Assembly: GCF_000974785.1 (NCBI RefSeq)
Contig: NZ_BBWV01000002.1
Coordinates: 372,001 to 436,000 of the forward strand
Source of the DNA: Flavihumibacter petaseus NBRC 106054
GTDB taxonomy: Bacteria > Bacteroidota > Bacteroidia > Chitinophagales > Chitinophagaceae
Length of the DNA: 64,000 nucleotides
Reading direction: 5' to 3'
The position numbers and the translations under genes were made by a program. Positions 13,440-23,618 of the stretch are shown in pieces. The notes below the pieces were generated by a model. It searched no databases, was not told where the DNA came from, and saw only the letters and a list, made by a program, of their open reading frames with translations. The number at the start of each line of letters is the position of its first letter. Position 1 is the stretch's first letter.

Positions 13440-15356
13440 CTAGTCATACAGGTAGGTCCATGCGCTTTCATGGGCTCCTGATTCCCCGGCAAAATGGATA
13501 AAATCACTGTAAAAGGGGTATTGCGACAGGGTAGCGCTGTCGCCAATGATGACGAGCTTTTTTTTGGCTCTTGTAACAGCCACATTCATTCTTCTCACAT
13601 CTGCGAGAAAACCGATAGTGCCTTCGGTGTTGCTTCTGGCCAGGCTGATATAGATAATATCCCTTTCCTGACCCTGAAAACTGTCAATCGTATTTGCCGT
13701 AACTAAACTCCGCGGGTAAAACTCCGGTCCCTGTTCCTCCAGCTTGTCCTGCAGTATCTCGACCTGCAACCGGTAAGGAGAAATAATGCCGATATCGGGC
13801 AATTGGTTTCCCGGAAATTTCGAACGGATCTGGTCAACCAGCTGACGCAGGTGAAGCATCAGAAAATCAGCTTCTTCGGGATTGCAGATTCCGGTTCCTT
13901 CCCGCTTTTCTTCATATCCACATCCCGCCGTGTCAACAAAGGAAAGGGGAAGTTGGTCGTCAGGCAAAGTTCGTGTGGCCACTGCGGGGGCGGCAACGAG
14001 ATGGCCGTTATAGAACTGCCGGGACGGAAATTCCATGATCAGCTGATGCATGCGGTACTGCATACTGAGCAGAAAAACCTGTTGCGGCAATGCTGCCGCC
14101 ATCTTTTGCAAAAGTGTTTCTGACAAGCCGCCGTTGGCAGCGTCAGCAGATTTTACAGTTGGGGACAGCTGATGGTGGTCACCGGCCATAATCAGTTTAC
14201 GGGTTTTCAGTACCGGAATCCAGGCGGCGGGTTCCAGTGCCTGGCCGGCTTCATCCATCACCACCATTGCAAACGATCTGTTGTTCAGCGTTGTATTGGC
14301 AGCGCCTACGAGGGTTGCAGTAATCACCTGCGCCCGCTCAAGTATATCCCCGGCAATATAATTTTCTGTTGCCATCACTTCCTTCATGATCTTACCCGCT
14401 TCATCAAACAATGCCTTCCGCTGATCCCGTTCTGCTTTTCCGAAACTGCGTTTGTATTTATGGGCCAGGTTGCGGTACTCGCTGGCCTGCCGCCGGAGTG
14501 CTTTGATCTGCTTCATCTGGGGATGGGCGCTCATCTGGTAATCGAGCGTCAGGTTGAGCTGTTTTTCGGCAACACGCGCCGGGTTTCCGATGCGCACCAC
14601 CTTCAATCCCGCCACGGAAAGCCGTTCGCTGAGCAGGTCGACTGCGGCGTTACTGGGAGCAACCACTAATACCTGTTCGCCGGCCCTTAAATGACCGGAA
14701 AATGCAGCTTTCAGCAGGGCAACCAGGGTAATGGTCTTGCCGGTTCCGGGAGGTCCGTGAAGGATCGCTAATTCTTTGGCTTCCAGTGCAGCCTGCGCCG
14801 CAGCAGCCTGGGCCGGATTCAATCCCGTAAATTGAAATGGCGGGAGTGGAGCAGCGGGGGAAACTTCACCGGTCTTCGTAAGAATACGGATAAGTGTACC
14901 GTCTTCCCGGTGATCAAGTCTTTTTGAAGCCTGTTGCAATGCCGACCGCATTTCATCATAGCTGTTTTCGTCAAACAGCAGGTCCACACCCAGTTTACCT
15001 TCACGGGTCCAGCGGGGCAATTCGTCAACAGACAGGGATAATTTAAGTGTGTTCCCACTTAACCAGGTGATGATGCCATCCAGCCGGTCTGTTTCTGGGT
15101 CGTGTTGCGAAAACAGGGATGCGGGCATCCCGGAGCGGAATTGATGGACTGTATCCGTATGGGTGGTTCGTTCGATCTCAATGGTAATGTAATCGCCGCG
15201 GCCGATTTCAGTTCCCTTAATCGCAATGGGATACCAGCTCATGCCATTTGCCCGCCTTTCACTAACGGGGTTCTCATGTGTCAGCCGTCGCCAGGTTTCC
15301 CTGTCCTCTTTTCGTTCTGTTTCCAGGAGGGAAAGTAATCTGCTGAAATAATCCAT
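13440..15356 (-). CDS. SF1 (Upf1-like) DNA/RNA helicase
   Basis: 638 residues from ATG at 15356; longer starts at 15389 or 15449 are possible but add sequence lacking helicase features. An N-terminal beta-barrel-like region (residues 1-170) precedes the ATPase core: Walker A GPPGTGKT, motif Ia VVAPSNAAVD, Walker B MDEAGQALEP, motif III AGDHHQLSP, motif IV QYRMH, motif V TANTIDSFQGQERD and motif VI NVAVTRAKKKL. This set defines the IGHMBP2/Upf1 branch (AAA_11 plus AAA_12), 5'-3' helicases of nucleic acids. Bacterial members are widespread and their cellular role is poorly known. It is divergent from the RiPP precursor gene. Confidence 0.93.
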   Translation of the reverse strand: MDYFSRLLSLLETERKEDRETWRRLTHENPVSERRANGMSWYPIAIKGTEIGRGDYITIEIERTTHTDTVHQFRSGMPASLFSQHDPETDRLDGIITWLSGNTLKLSLSVDELPRWTREGKLGVDLLFDENSYDEMRSALQQASKRLDHREDGTLIRILTKTGEVSPAAPLPPFQFTGLNPAQAAAAQAALEAKELAILHGPPGTGKTITLVALLKAAFSGHLRAGEQVLVVAPSNAAVDLLSERLSVAGLKVVRIGNPARVAEKQLNLTLDYQMSAHPQMKQIKALRRQASEYRNLAHKYKRSFGKAERDQRKALFDEAGKIMKEVMATENYIAGDILERAQVITATLVGAANTTLNNRSFAMVVMDEAGQALEPAAWIPVLKTRKLIMAGDHHQLSPTVKSADAANGGLSETLLQKMAAALPQQVFLLSMQYRMHQLIMEFPSRQFYNGHLVAAPAVATRTLPDDQLPLSFVDTAGCGYEEKREGTGICNPEEADFLMLHLRQLVDQIRSKFPGNQLPDIGIISPYRLQVEILQDKLEEQGPEFYPRSLVTANTIDSFQGQERDIIYISLARSNTEGTIGFLADVRRMNVAVTRAKKKLVIIGDSATLSQYPFYSDFIHFAGESGAHESAWTYLYD

Positions 15357-15462
15357 GTGGGCAAAATTGCTTAAATAAAATGATTTCATCAGCGGGGCAA
15401 CGGTATGGAAAGGATATCTGTCAGCATCCTTGTAACCGGACTGTGCCATAAAACCTTAAGAC

Positions 15463-15639
15463 ATGAAACTGCCAAAATCCCTCCTCAGCGCTCTTGTGAT
15501 CGGAATAGCCGTTCAGGCCGTTCCTGCCTGTACCAAAACCAAAGAATCTCCGTCACAAAAGGCAAAGAAAGACGCCAAAGAGAAGGAAACAGAGAAGACC
15601 TCAATTCCGTTTAACTGCCCGGCTTGTGGAATGGGATGA
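15463..15639 (+). CDS. RiPP precursor peptide of the MNIO class (C-terminal CPACGMG)
   Basis: 58 residues. The leader starts MKLPKSLLSALVIGIAVQ and forms a hydrophobic helix ending in a lipobox-like VPAC (Cys23); a charged linker rich in Lys and Glu follows (residues 24-47); the C-terminus is NCPACGMG with Cys52 and Cys55. This layout matches the Bacteroidota precursor family that accompanies DUF692 enzymes related to ChrH of the Chryseobacterium 'chryseobasin' pathway. Its stop codon overlaps the start of the DUF692 gene (ATGA at 15636-15639), so enzyme and substrate are translationally coupled. The core is predicted to be modified at the cysteines; the final product, and whether it binds metal or is exported as a lipoprotein, are unknown. 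Confidence 0.88.
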   Translation: MKLPKSLLSALVIGIAVQAVPACTKTKESPSQKAKKDAKEKETEKTSIPFNCPACGMG

Positions 15640-16769
15640 CAACATTAGCCGCAGTTGCCCTTAATCCTGACAGTAATTTGCTCACTGCAGCATTACCGCT
15701 GCTGGAGGAAGAAATGGTGGATGCTATCGAATGGTCATTCGATGCGGTAGATACCACCGGAAGGTTGCCTGCATACTTTCACGATCTCCTGCAATTTTAC
15801 GCGAGCCACCATCGCCTTATCGGGCATGGGATCTATTTCTCGGCTTTTTCCGGGAAGTGGACACCAGACCAGCAGGAATGGCTTTCAAGGCTTGCGGCAG
15901 TTTGCCGCCAGTTTCCGCTGGAACAGGTCACTGAACATTTCGGTTTCATGACCGGAAAGGACTTTCACAAAGGGGCGCCGCTCAATATTCCCCGGAATGC
16001 GGCAACGCTCGCAATCGGGCGTGACCGGCTTGCAAGGATCAGACAGGCTTGTAATTGTCCGGTCGGCCTGGAAAACCTGGCTTTCAGTTATTCCCTTGAA
16101 GAAACCAGGCACCATGGGGCTTTTCTTGCTGAACTGGTTGAACCTGTAAACGGGTTTATCATACTGGACCTTCACAACTGTTACTGTCAGGCGATGAACT
16201 TTTCGGTTGATGCTGATCGTTTGCTGGATACCTATCCGCTTCACCTTGTAAGAGAGATCCATATCAGCGGGGGCAGTTGGGAACCTTTTCCGGATGCGCC
16301 GGGAGGAATGGTCAGGCGGGACACTCATGATGATAGTGTGCCACAGGAAGTTTTTGACCTGTTACAGCTGGCATTGCGCCGTTGCCCCAACGTCCGGTAT
16401 GTTACCCTCGAACAGTTGAGTACGGCATTGGAAACAACATCTGCACAGGAGCAATTCTGCAAAGATTTCCGGCGGATGCGTGGAATGATGGCAATACCGG
16501 AAGGTGAAAGACAGCAAGCGGCATCCGGGGTGCCCCAGGTTGATTTCCATAGACCCATTCCCCTGTTAACCGGTCAGATTCCGGTTGAAGATATGCTGCT
16601 GTATCAGCAACAACGGGAACTTGCGGGTATTCTGGAATCTTCAGAGGACCTGGCGACAGCCCAAAAATTACTGCGCAATTCTTCGCTGGCGGCATCGGAC
16701 TGGAAGATAGAAAACTGGGCGCCCTATATGGTGGAGACCGCGCGGCAGATTGCCCGGAAATGGAAATAA
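15636..16769 (+). CDS. MNIO-family RiPP-modifying enzyme (DUF692, MbnB/TglH/ChrH-like)
   Basis: 377 residues. The TIM-barrel DUF692 fold occupies about residues 5-285, and the metal ligands of multinuclear non-heme iron oxidases are in order: His in LIGHGIYFS, Glu-His in VTEHFGF, Glu-Asn in GLENLAF, Asp-His-Asn in LDLHNCYCQ, His in REIHISGG, Asp-x-His in RRDTHDDS and Glu in VTLEQ. Known members (MbnB, TglH, ChrH) use two or three irons and O2 to oxidise cysteine or other residues of a precursor peptide. The usual separate partner protein is not found; instead a C-terminal extension of about 90 residues (QVDFHRPIPLLTGQ to the end) is present and may fill that role. Start ATG overlaps the precursor stop codon. 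Confidence 0.92.
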   Translation: MTTLAAVALNPDSNLLTAALPLLEEEMVDAIEWSFDAVDTTGRLPAYFHDLLQFYASHHRLIGHGIYFSAFSGKWTPDQQEWLSRLAAVCRQFPLEQVTEHFGFMTGKDFHKGAPLNIPRNAATLAIGRDRLARIRQACNCPVGLENLAFSYSLEETRHHGAFLAELVEPVNGFIILDLHNCYCQAMNFSVDADRLLDTYPLHLVREIHISGGSWEPFPDAPGGMVRRDTHDDSVPQEVFDLLQLALRRCPNVRYVTLEQLSTALETTSAQEQFCKDFRRMRGMMAIPEGERQQAASGVPQVDFHRPIPLLTGQIPVEDMLLYQQQRELAGILESSEDLATAQKLLRNSSLAASDWKIENWAPYMVETARQIARKWK

Positions 16770-16784
16770 ATTATCTTGCCGCTC

Positions 16785-17741
16785 ATGAATTTTCTGCGTG
16801 TGTCGGCATTGTCGGTTAATTACCGCGAGGTTCCCATTTTACAGGATGTGAGTTTTCACCAGGAACCCCTGGAACGACTGGCCATCGCAGGAGAAACAGG
16901 ATCCGGTAAAACCACCCTGCTGAAAGCAATCGGAGGACTGGTAACTCCTGCTGCCGGTGCTGTCCATTTTGAAGGCGAAAAGGTCCTGGGACCCCTGGAA
17001 AGGCTAATTCCCGGCCATCCGCACATCGCCTATCTTTCCCAGCATTTCGAATTACGCAATAATTACAGTGTATATGACATCCTGGAGTATACGAACCGGC
17101 TGAGTGATGACTGGCTTCCGCGGATCATTGAAATATGCCGTGTGGAGCATCTCCTGAAGCGGCGAACGGACCAGTTGTCGGGAGGTGAAAGACAACGGGT
17201 TGCCCTTGCGCGGCAATTGTTGACCAAACCCCGTTTGCTGTTGCTGGATGAACCATTCTCTAACCTTGATGGTAGTCACCGGGATCAGTTGCGGCTGGTG
17301 ATAGATGAAATGGAAGCTGCATTGGGGGTGACCTGTCTCATGGTGTCGCATGACCCCTATGACAGTCTCAGCTGGGCTTCTCAACTTCTGGTAATGGAGC
17401 GAGGGTACCTTGTGCAACGGGGACGGCCAGCCGAAATATACGAACGGCCGGCGAACCGGTATGCAGCGCGGTTGTTCGGAAAGTTTAATCTTTTGCCTGC
17501 AGGCGGCAGGTTGCGGTTTCTGCGTCCTGAGCACATGCAGCTTACCGATCAGCAGGATGACGCGCTGCCAGGCAGGGTTGTACAGGCCAGGTATTACGGT
17601 TCGTTTTGGGAGTGGGAGGTGGAAACAACTGCCGGCCGGTTGCTGGTGCAGACAGGTAAACCTGATCCGGGCAAGGGAACAGGGATCCATATCCGCATTG
17701 ATCCCCAGGCGCCGCATCACCTTGTTTCATCAGATTTCTAA
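16785..17741 (+). CDS. ABC transporter ATPase with C-terminal regulatory-type domain
   Basis: 318 residues from ATG at 16785, 15 bases after the MNIO gene. The ATPase domain has Walker A GETGSGKTT, Q-loop at YLSQHFELR, signature LSGGERQR, Walker B LLLLDEP and the switch His in MVSHDP. Residues 235-318 resemble the TOBE domain of CysA/PotA/FbpC-type importers (RFLRPEHMQL, GRVVQARYYGSFWEWEV). That architecture is usual for importers of anions, iron or polyamines. No permease or binding protein is adjacent, so it must work with proteins encoded elsewhere or have another role. Its place in the RiPP operon suggests involvement in uptake, export or immunity, which is inference. Confidence 0.9.
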   Translation: MNFLRVSALSVNYREVPILQDVSFHQEPLERLAIAGETGSGKTTLLKAIGGLVTPAAGAVHFEGEKVLGPLERLIPGHPHIAYLSQHFELRNNYSVYDILEYTNRLSDDWLPRIIEICRVEHLLKRRTDQLSGGERQRVALARQLLTKPRLLLLDEPFSNLDGSHRDQLRLVIDEMEAALGVTCLMVSHDPYDSLSWASQLLVMERGYLVQRGRPAEIYERPANRYAARLFGKFNLLPAGGRLRFLRPEHMQLTDQQDDALPGRVVQARYYGSFWEWEVETTAGRLLVQTGKPDPGKGTGIHIRIDPQAPHHLVSSDF

Positions 17742-17771
17742 CGTACATTTCAAATCCGAAATAATTTGCCA

Positions 17772-19730
17772 ATGAAAAATTTGCTTCTTCCGGTATTGCT
17801 GTTCGCCGGCATCACAACAATTGCGCAGCCCAGGCTTCCAGAAATTTTTGGAGACAATATGGTGTTACAGCGGGAACGCGCGCTGACCATATGGGGCTGG
17901 GCGGGCAAAAATGAAAAGATCACGGTCAGTTTTCACGATCAGAAACAAACGACAAAAGCTGATAAGCAAGGCAAATGGTCAGTTGAACTGTCACCTGAAG
18001 TTGCCGGCGGACCTTTTGAACTGGTTGTATCCGGGAAAGGGGAAAGAAGGATCAAAAATATTCTGTTGGGCGATGTGTGGCTTTGCAGCGGACAATCAAA
18101 TATGGAATGGAATGTACGCAGTTCCAATAATGCTGAACAGGTCATTGCGGGTTCTGCCAATGACCGGATCAGGCATTTTGCGGTCGCCAAAACTATTTCA
18201 GATAAACCGTTGGATAATGTAAAGGCGGCCGCGTGGGAGATCGCAGGACCTGCTACCACCGGGAACTTTACCGCAGTCGGGTATTTTTTTGCAAAAACCC
18301 TGGAGAAGGAGTTAGGCGTTCCCGTCGGACTCGTGCACAGCTCCTGGGGTGGAACCGATGTGGAAACCTGGACTAGCCGCGAAGCCCTTGCAGACAGCAA
18401 GGAGTTTCACGACCTGATGACCGGTTTACCGAAACTGAACCTTGATTCATTGGCAGCTAAAAAAAATGCAGAAGCTGCTGCAGTGGTAACCCAATTGCAG
18501 GGTAAACTACCCGATGCGGCTACTGTTGCCAGATTTCCATCAGTTGAATTCGATCAGCGTTCCTGGCCGGAGATGCAACTACCTGAATTATGGGAAACAC
18601 AACAGCTTAAGAATTTTGATGGTGTAGTATGGTTCAGAAAGACCATTCAGCTGACCAAAGAACAGGCTGCACAGGCGGCTACTTTGTTGTTGGGAACAAT
18701 AGATGATTCAGATGACACCTATGTGAATGGTAAAAAGGTGGGAGCTACCATGAACTCTTATAATGTTGAACGCCGGTATGTTATCCCTGCCGGATTGTTG
18801 AAAGAGGGGGTCAATGTGATCGCCATACGGGTGGAGGATACAGGCGGCGGTGGTGGTGTTTACGGCGGTGCCGACCGGCTCCAGCTGACGCTGGGAGACC
18901 AGCATTTGCCGCTGGCAGGGAAATGGGCCTTACAGGTAGAGCGCCTTGCTGCCACTGCCACTTCGGTTGGACCGAACAGTTATCCATCGCTGCTTTATAA
19001 CGGCATGATCCATCCGCTATTGAAGTTTCCTATAAAAGGTGCTATCTGGTACCAGGGTGAGAATAATGCCGGGCGCGCAGCGCAATATGCAACAGCCTTC
19101 CCTGTGATGATCAATGACTGGCGCAAAGGCTGGGAGGAAGGGAACTTTCCTTTTTACTTTGTTCAGCTGTCCAGTTTTATTGCCGGTGATGGCGACAGCA
19201 GGAAAGGAAGTGCATGGGCTGAATTACGGGAAGCCCAGACCCAGACACTGGTACTTCCCCAGACGGGGATGGCGGTGACGATTGATGTTGGCGAAAGGAA
19301 CGATATCCACCCCCGTAACAAACAGGATGTGGGTTATCGCCTTGCTTTGCAGGCTTTGAAAAAAACTTATGGTAAAGGCGTTGTTGCCGATGGTCCTGTT
19401 TTTTCAAACATGGAGATCGACGGCAACGAGGTCCGCCTCGGCTTTGCCAATGCGGATGGTCTAATGGCCAAAGGCAGTGACGGTGTTGTATTGGGCTTTG
19501 ATGTTGCCGGGGCTGACCGGAAATTCTACCCGGTAACAGGCAAAATTGAAAACGGCAAGGTAGTGTTGCAGGGAGATGCCGCTCAAAAACCGGTTGCGGT
19601 AAGGTATGCATGGGCGGATGATGCCGGTAAAGCTAACCTGTTCAATGGTGCCGGGTTACCGGCGCAGCCTTTCCGGACGGACCACTGGGAAGGGATTACA
19701 GAAAAAAATAAATACCAGGGAGGAAACTAA
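17772..19730 (+). CDS. sialate O-acetylesterase (SGNH)
   Basis: 652 residues from ATG at 17772, with a signal peptide ending TIAQ. The catalytic Ser is in LCSGQSNMEWNV (about residue 110); the middle holds an inserted beta domain (LLLGTIDDSDDTYVNGKKVG, a galactose-binding-like fold); the second half has IWYQGENNAG and the Asp-His of NDIHPRNKQDVGYRLA. The family removes acetyl groups from O-acetylated sialic acids and, in Bacteroidota, from other glycans such as xylan-derived sugars. It should act in the periplasm or at the surface. It starts 30 bases after the ABC ATPase and may share its transcript, although its role is unrelated. Confidence 0.93.
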   Translation: MKNLLLPVLLFAGITTIAQPRLPEIFGDNMVLQRERALTIWGWAGKNEKITVSFHDQKQTTKADKQGKWSVELSPEVAGGPFELVVSGKGERRIKNILLGDVWLCSGQSNMEWNVRSSNNAEQVIAGSANDRIRHFAVAKTISDKPLDNVKAAAWEIAGPATTGNFTAVGYFFAKTLEKELGVPVGLVHSSWGGTDVETWTSREALADSKEFHDLMTGLPKLNLDSLAAKKNAEAAAVVTQLQGKLPDAATVARFPSVEFDQRSWPEMQLPELWETQQLKNFDGVVWFRKTIQLTKEQAAQAATLLLGTIDDSDDTYVNGKKVGATMNSYNVERRYVIPAGLLKEGVNVIAIRVEDTGGGGGVYGGADRLQLTLGDQHLPLAGKWALQVERLAATATSVGPNSYPSLLYNGMIHPLLKFPIKGAIWYQGENNAGRAAQYATAFPVMINDWRKGWEEGNFPFYFVQLSSFIAGDGDSRKGSAWAELREAQTQTLVLPQTGMAVTIDVGERNDIHPRNKQDVGYRLALQALKKTYGKGVVADGPVFSNMEIDGNEVRLGFANADGLMAKGSDGVVLGFDVAGADRKFYPVTGKIENGKVVLQGDAAQKPVAVRYAWADDAGKANLFNGAGLPAQPFRTDHWEGITEKNKYQGGN

Positions 19731-22574: not shown

Positions 22575-23618
22575 ATGAAAATATTGCTAACATTCCTGTC
22601 GGTACTGACTGTTGCAGGTCTGGTTCAGGCACAGGACAATGCACAGAAACCTTACCAGGTAAAAAAACTATCCGGCAGCGATCAGATCAGTGCTGCGCGC
22701 ATGGAAACTTCGGGTGGTAACCTGACGGTGACCGGCGTAGACAGTGATCCCAGGCTGGAGGTGTATGTTCGGCCCAATAATAACCGTGACCGCAGCATTT
22801 CCGATGCGGAAATAAAAGAGCGGCTTGAGCGCGATTTTGATTTGTCTGTTTCTGTGACCGGGGGTAAGCTGGTGGCAATTGCCAGGCAAAAACGCAATAT
22901 CCGTGACTGGGATAAAACTGTTAGTATTTCGTTCAGGTTATATGCACCCCGCCAGGTGTCTACCGATCTCACCACCAGCGGCGGGAATATCAGCCTCGAA
23001 GGCATTACCGGGGGCTCACAGGACTTTACTACAAGTGGTGGCAACCTCGACGTAAAGTCGGTGTCAGGTAAGATAAAAGGGGTGACTTCAGGGGGTAATG
23101 TTCACCTGGAGAACTGCAGCGATAAAATTGATATGGCTACCAGTGGTGGTAATATTACTGCATCCGGCAGCAAGGGGAATCTTCGTCTGACCACATCAGG
23201 CGGAAATGTGAACCTGAATGACCTGGATGGTCAGGTTCTGGCAACTACAAGCGGTGGGAATGTGAAGGGTGATAATATCGGTGGAGAACTGGAAGCTTCC
23301 ACCAGTGGTGGCAGCGTGCGGCTGGACAATCTTCGTTGCAGCCTGGAAGCCTCTACCAGCGGCGGTAATATTTCCGTCAACATGAAAGAGCTGGGCAAAT
23401 ATGTCAAGCTCGATAATTCCGGTGGCAATATCGACCTTGAAATCCCTTCCGGAAAGGGGCTTGACCTCGCGCTCCGCGGTGACAAGATCAAAACTTCCAC
23501 CCTGAATAATTTCAAAGGTGACGTTGATGACAACTCCATTAAAGGATCCATTAATGGTGGAGGAATTCCTGTAGATATCCGGGCAAGCAGTGGCAGAATA
23601 ACATTGACCATGCGGTGA
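22575..23618 (+). CDS. DUF4097-like secreted beta-helix protein with SGGN repeats
   Basis: 347 residues with a signal peptide ending VQAQ. From about residue 45 to 290 the chain is built of ten copies of a short repeat centred on T-S-G-G-N (TTSGGNISLEG, TTSGGNLDVKS, VTSGGNVHLEN and so on), each likely one turn of a right-handed beta-helix. This matches the DUF4097 / putative auto-transporter adhesin family common in Bacteroidota. The family is secreted and often linked to envelope stress responses or adhesion; no activity is proven. A terminator follows directly, so it is a single gene unit. Confidence 0.85.
   Translation: MKILLTFLSVLTVAGLVQAQDNAQKPYQVKKLSGSDQISAARMETSGGNLTVTGVDSDPRLEVYVRPNNNRDRSISDAEIKERLERDFDLSVSVTGGKLVAIARQKRNIRDWDKTVSISFRLYAPRQVSTDLTTSGGNISLEGITGGSQDFTTSGGNLDVKSVSGKIKGVTSGGNVHLENCSDKIDMATSGGNITASGSKGNLRLTTSGGNVNLNDLDGQVLATTSGGNVKGDNIGGELEASTSGGSVRLDNLRCSLEASTSGGNISVNMKELGKYVKLDNSGGNIDLEIPSGKGLDLALRGDKIKTSTLNNFKGDVDDNSIKGSINGGGIPVDIRASSGRITLTMR

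Follow-up and report, generated by a model that had tools for sequence, protein, structure and literature searches.

The window, by which we mean the whole stretch of 64,000 nucleotides that was analysed, holds a gene for a peptide of 58 residues that runs by its last bases into the gene of an MNIO (DUF692) enzyme, and the question raised by this locus is whether the two constitute a RiPP pathway and, if so, to which of the related systems it would belong and what its product could be. A sequence-only reading had proposed a compact MNIO-class RiPP locus, related to the chryseobasin pathways and with an unknown product. The class is supported by the match of the peptide to NF050125, by the iron ligands of the enzyme and by the precursors found beside the enzyme in relatives; as to the product, its structure becomes predictable, as a lipidated, unmethylated macrocycle, because close homologues, one of them from Chitinophaga sancti, are described as characterised in a 2025 preprint (PMC12636315). 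Our analysis indicates that this is very probably a minimal RiPP cassette of the DybAH/ChsAH type.

The precursor gene and its enzyme

The features of the locus are the following:

15463..15639, + strand: precursor peptide, DybA/ChsA type, 58 aa (NCBIfam NF050125, 80.4 bits, cut-off 40; sequence)
15463..15528, + strand: lipoprotein-type signal peptide, residues 1-22, MKLPKSLLSALVIGIAVQAVPA (sequence; first part conserved in relatives)
15529..15531, + strand: predicted lipidated Cys23, in a lipobox-like VPAC, residues 20-23 (sequence; precursors of relatives)
15532..15615, + strand: linker, charged, unconserved (19.5% identity across 30 loci)
15616..15636, + strand: core CPACGMG, predicted site of the macrocycle and hydantoin (sequence; modified motif of DybA as described in PMC12636315)
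15636..15639, + strand: ATGA shared by the stop of the precursor and the start of the enzyme (sequence)
15636..16769, + strand: MNIO (DUF692) maturase, 377 aa, TIM barrel and C-terminal helical part (PF05114, NF050165, AlphaFold)
16437..16766, + strand: helical part at the C-terminus of the MNIO, approximately residues 268-377 (AlphaFold model)

The ORF at 15463-15639 (+) begins with MKLPKSLLSALVIGIAVQAVPAC, continues with the charged linker and ends in CPACGMG followed by TGA, so that the position, the length of 58 residues and the layout of hydrophobic leader, charged linker and core had been read correctly, as had the ATGA overlap with the enzyme gene. The comparison with MNIO-precursor profiles that had been suggested as a check gave a match along residues 1-58 to NF050125 ("chryseobasin-related MNIO class RiPP peptide"; 80.4 bits against a curated cut-off of 40, E 1.2e-22), while a Pfam search with the 58-residue precursor gave no match at E up to 1. 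A ChrH-related (DybAH-type) locus of NF050125 would be recognised by a precursor above the cut-off that ends in CPxCGxG and has a lipobox with a conserved third Cys, by an adjoining MNIO that has its iron ligands and a C-terminal helical domain, and by a -4 Da product with macrocycle and hydantoin; here the precursor ends in CPACGMG and a stop, and the MNIO adjoins it through the overlap.

The enzyme reaches 106 bits against Pfam PF05114 (cut-off 25), its genome containing this one PF05114 gene, and 361 bits against NCBIfam NF050165 (MNIO_ChrH), which lies under the cut-off of 600. The iron ligands of TglH are given as H71, H107, E151, D184, N187, H216, D229, H231 and E258 (PMC10880893). In a phmmer alignment E151, D184, N187, H216, D229 and H231 correspond to E146, D178, N181, H209, D229 and H231 of the window enzyme, and H71, H107 and E258, which fall outside that alignment, were paired by hand, through motif and spacing, with H64, H101 and E259. 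All nine window residues are invariant in 81 aligned enzymes. The claim that the enzyme keeps the expected metal ligands therefore stands, and their loss, which had been named as a ground for abandoning the proposal, is not what the nine out of nine matched TglH ligands display. The AlphaFold model (mean pLDDT 89, pTM 0.89) has TglH, MbnB and a DUF692 structure as its best PDB matches, with TM-scores of 0.52-0.58 over the whole query in the first nine rows. After the barrel it places helices at residues 268-284, 289-295, 320-335, 339-347 and 363-376, and these make up the C-terminal helical domain, likened by description only to the linked helical bundle of about 7.8 kDa that PMC12636315 reports for the ChrH subfamily.

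Co-occurrence of precursor and enzyme in relatives

Among 147 genomes of the family, the enzyme was found at E up to 1e-40 in eight, and the DNA pattern for C-P-[AG]-C-G-[LMV]-G with TRR directly after it (TRR reads as a stop or as TGG; 9/9 of the matches found end in a stop) occurred in the identical eight genomes, its reversed control being found in 0/147. Since the peptide also matches NF050125, the 58-residue ORF is not a product of chance. In its own genome the pattern has one match; substrates acting in trans were considered and set aside, as there is no second match to this pattern in that genome.

Named genomes yielded 273 confirmed relatives; the best 80 of them were used, and the statements below therefore refer to the closest relatives. 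In 79 of these 80 loci the enzyme is preceded, on its own strand, by a precursor that ends at most 633 bp from the mechanically called enzyme start. The earlier proposal had staked itself on related genomes having a small CPACGMG peptide upstream of the DUF692 gene, and in these 79 loci of the best 80 a homologous precursor is there. The sole miss among them is L049, where a ChrH-type enzyme (L049:6688-7818) sits on an 8 kb contig with no recognisable CPxCGxG precursor. Nine of the best 80 loci have two precursors, eight by script and the ninth, L060, with a second precursor that the start rule removed although its lipobox Cys is there; this rule asked for K, R, N or E as the second residue and for a Cys where one is expected, and it removed 1/88 candidates. 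The resulting set of 88 precursors comprises 87 from 79 loci and that of the window. The constancy of the core in this set is partly by construction, because precursors were picked by their C-terminal pattern (CP.CG. or C..CGMG before a stop). In two species of one genus (g2; L007:901-1138 and L008) the tandem second precursors have longer and different linkers, and that of L007 ends in a variant core, CPPCGRG.

Conservation of the signal peptide

What had been described as a hydrophobic leader looks like a lipoprotein-type signal ending in a lipobox-like VPAC, and not only like a RiPP leader. The VPAC has the Cys and a small residue at -1, but Pro at -2, which recurs in 3/88 precursors. The usual lipobox pattern does not list Pro at this position, and lipidation is on this account less certain in the window than in DybA.

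The first part of this signal is strongly conserved. Counted from the Met, residues 2-17 have a mean pairwise identity of 51.5% in 30 loci, hand-picked from the best 80 after the sequences had been seen (one per named genus and several MAGs); in these same loci identity is 58.5% for the enzymes and 19.5% for the linkers. In the ten precursors taken as Chitinophagales, residues 2-17 reach 60.4%. For residues 2-17 of two orthologous lipoproteins used as controls, with loci left out where the script detected no lipobox, the values are 13.3% for GldH across the class (24/30 loci usable) and 11.9% for GldD across the class (21/30 loci) or 11.8% within the family (25/30), rising to 23-27% when the best shift is allowed, and the contrast is tempered by the lower overall conservation of the controls (45-55% in the mature part). 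Shuffled precursor signal peptides gave 12.7%, the highest of 200 being 14.1%. When 16 residues are counted back from the Cys the identity is only 23% in precursors against 18-19% in controls, and the constraint thus sits in the first part of the signal and not in the lipobox. In the 88 precursors from the window and the best 80 of the 273 relatives, K2 is found in 81, S or P at position 4 in 87, K5 in 71, L or I at position 8 in 88 and A10 in 83. Synonymous codons vary at the conserved positions in the 30 loci and the window, which argues for a constraint acting on the protein. In the ChrA-type leaders of L193 and L194, 2/16 positions each match the leader consensus, so that chryseobasin proper does not have the motif in register.

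The preprint suggests relaxed selection in the signal peptide (PMC12636315); its sequence logo may itself show how conserved the leader is. Relaxed selection may be true of a comparison across phyla, but these Bacteroidota do not conform to it. On the role of the leader, two results of that source point in opposite directions and neither settles the matter: GFP to which the heptad alone had been attached was a substrate of DybH in E. coli, against a role in catalysis, and lipidated DybA from E. coli was partly unmodified (its figure 5f), in favour of a role in timing. We would tentatively entertain, as possible though rather doubtful, the idea that MK(L/I)(S/P)K-x-L-L-x-A is a second, specifically recognised element and not a free signal peptide, either for a cytoplasmic hold or as a released-peptide signal. 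In the former case some factor, perhaps the C-terminal helical domain of the enzyme, may keep the peptide cytoplasmic until its core has been modified, just as chaperones do with Tat substrates; in the latter, the signal peptide, once released, may act as a signal in its own right. If this were true, substrate recognition in the native host would extend beyond the C-terminal heptad.

After the lipobox Cys, 39/88 precursors have at least two acidic residues between +2 and +6, and 42/88, the window included, have Lys at +3. These features are somewhat like Bacteroidota surface-export signals; as the window has only one acidic residue at +2 to +6, we make no claim of surface display. A degenerate pattern for the leader by itself gave 27 matches in the 147 family genomes against four for its reversed control, seven of the 27 being CPxCGxG precursors; this pattern misses the precursor of the enzyme-positive G119, one of the eight, and the second precursors of G001 and G101. 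The remaining matches, considered as leaders without a core, were judged by eye to be unrelated, several being other lipoprotein-like ORFs (L174, L175, L178, L183), of which L178 is one of 66 residues with a different C-terminus.

Flanking genes and the extent of the unit

A profile scan of the immediate neighbours found a helicase, an ABC ATPase and a SASA-type esterase-like protein, and among these immediate neighbours no chrI, chrE or chrP, the genes that the published cluster of ChrAH contains (PMC10214503). The ABC ATPase (16785-17741) lies on the same strand, 15 bases past the enzyme stop codon. At E up to 1e-40 the enzyme has no match in G008 and G108, two genomes of the same genus. In G108 the helicase and ABC ATPase genes are direct neighbours and point away from each other, across a gap that we read from the start codons as about 50 bases, and the same kind of esterase-like gene then follows (matched by eye), so that its locus L105, set against window positions 13440-19730, has the three genes together without the pair, as an empty site. 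The flanking genes are thus independent of the pair. In G008 the best matches to helicase and ABC ATPase are about 21 kb apart on one contig. The patchy distribution in 8/147 genomes fits gain as well as loss and does not distinguish the two; a helicase that clusters with that of the window being also near the pair in L045, L065 and L083, the balance would lean towards inheritance and a loss in G108.

Shared partners were sought in 81 loci (the 80 and the window) among ORFs of at least 80 aa lying up to 9 kb from the enzyme, listing clusters present in at least six loci; the counts are lower bounds, as 14 of the 80 loci are shorter than 19 kb. The enzyme cluster itself was recovered in 79/81 loci, L043 and L092 having dropped out when ORFs were called mechanically. 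Of the other clusters, the largest, with a median of 1059 aa and SusC-like by reading, is present in 22/81 loci and the next in 15/81, and a MacB-like permease and a C39-type ABC transporter-like ORF, labelled by eye, are in 7/81 and 6/81; a shared functional partner was set aside on these counts. Within the best 80 of the 273 relatives an ORF grouping with the window ATPase is present only in L045, where it lies some 4.7 kb past the enzyme.

Two species of one genus have a ChaN-like gene beside the pair, recognised by eye (L003:2602-3558, L004:448-1485). A scan of 15200-17800 for promoters and terminators gave one promoter-like and 0 terminator-like sites, not above shuffles, the sigma-70 consensus being poorly suited to Bacteroidota. 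Farther away in the window, an ORF of 347 aa at 22575-23618 with many TSGGN-type repeats has, by eye, the look of a repetitive, beta-structured secreted protein.

Proposed pathway and alternative explanations

We infer the chemistry and the lipidation of the window pair from its close homologues. With the enzyme of D. crusticola DSM 16708, which from the strain name would be DybH and whose precursor ends in CPACGMG, the window enzyme shares 54% identity. According to PMC12636315, the product of DybH is 4 Da lighter and contains, besides a macrocycle, a hydantoin with a free thiol, the mass shift of ChsAH from Chitinophaga sancti is that of DybH, HymH likewise gives -4 Da, and DybA is triacylated at its lipobox Cys in E. 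coli. By analogy, the MNIO, with a multinuclear iron centre and without a partner protein, would carry out a four-electron oxidation (-4 Da) of the C-terminal CPACGMG while the peptide is in the cytoplasm, and so form a thioaminal-linked macrocycle together with a hydantoin that has a free thiol; the signal peptide would then take the modified peptide into the lipoprotein pathway, where Cys23 would be modified with diacylglycerol and signal peptidase II would cut before it. The product would be a lipopeptide anchored in the membrane and ending, at its C-terminus, in the macrocycle.

The alternative closest to this pathway is that of a true chryseobasin, in which the enzyme would also S-methylate the core (+10 Da), as ChrH does. 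The core CPACGMG is the same, the enzyme is 39% identical to that of L193, which we take as Chryseobacterium-like because it is above the ChrH cut-off, and a characterised homologue, ArlAH, gave both products, -4 Da and +10 Da, according to PMC12636315. However, the profiles of chryseobasin proper stay below their cut-offs, NF050165 with 361 of 600 bits and NF050124 (ChrA) with 19.6 of 50, two enzymes of another family reaching 686 and 707 bits against NF050165; the window precursor has a lipobox-like Cys that two ChrA-type peptides lack; the neighbours are not ChrI, ChrE and ChrP; and the products reported for DybH, ChsH and HymH have the -4 Da shift. On the identities of 54% and 39% the locus would belong with DybAH, and methylation of this core appears improbable.

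A role for the adjacent ABC ATPase as exporter of the pathway would be suggested by its strand and by the 15 bases that separate it from the enzyme, but a congener has it together with the helicase and esterase-like genes in the absence of the pair, and only L045 among the best 80 of the 273 relatives has its like, so that a dedicated exporter of this kind is disfavoured and, in our judgement, very improbable. Least credible of all would be an ordinary small lipoprotein, next to an enzyme that acts on something else: the lipoprotein-type signal is in accordance with it, but the peptide accompanies the enzyme in 79 of the best 80 loci and in the same eight of 147 genomes, and in homologues this motif is, as described in PMC12636315, a proven substrate. 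The DybAH-like cassette, a unit of two genes with a strong protein-level constraint on the first part of the signal peptide, therefore remains our preferred reading, and it raises the questions by what means the peptide is modified before it is exported and whether the leader is recognised.

Comparison with known systems

Chryseobasins are listed among the known products of MNIOs (PMC12452194), and PMC12636315 describes, in Dyadobacter, Chitinophaga and Hymenobacter, a subfamily with a conserved CPxCGxG, minimal two-gene clusters and no partner protein. DybA/DybH and ChsA/ChsH, the DAG-RiPPs of that description, are like the window pair in the short precursor ending in CPACGMG, in the adjacent MNIO with a C-terminal helical part, and in the minimal cluster of two genes without a partner protein; in the window, the linker differs from that of D. 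crusticola and the place of their lipobox is taken by the lipobox-like VPAC, with its Pro at -2. ChrA and ChrH of Chryseobacterium share with it the core and the enzyme subfamily, at 39% identity to a homologue of ChrH level, but differ in the two ChrA-type peptides without a lipobox Cys and in the S-methylation by ChrH (PMC10214503). TglH and MbnB resemble the window enzyme in predicted fold and iron ligands, and differ in having other substrates, separate partner proteins and, as described, no added C-terminal helical domain. The window pair is thus a further member of a known family and not new in kind, adding to the recently described group of lipidated RiPPs; what is new here are the flanks without the pair in a congener and a leader whose first part has 52% identity against 12-13% in control lipoproteins.
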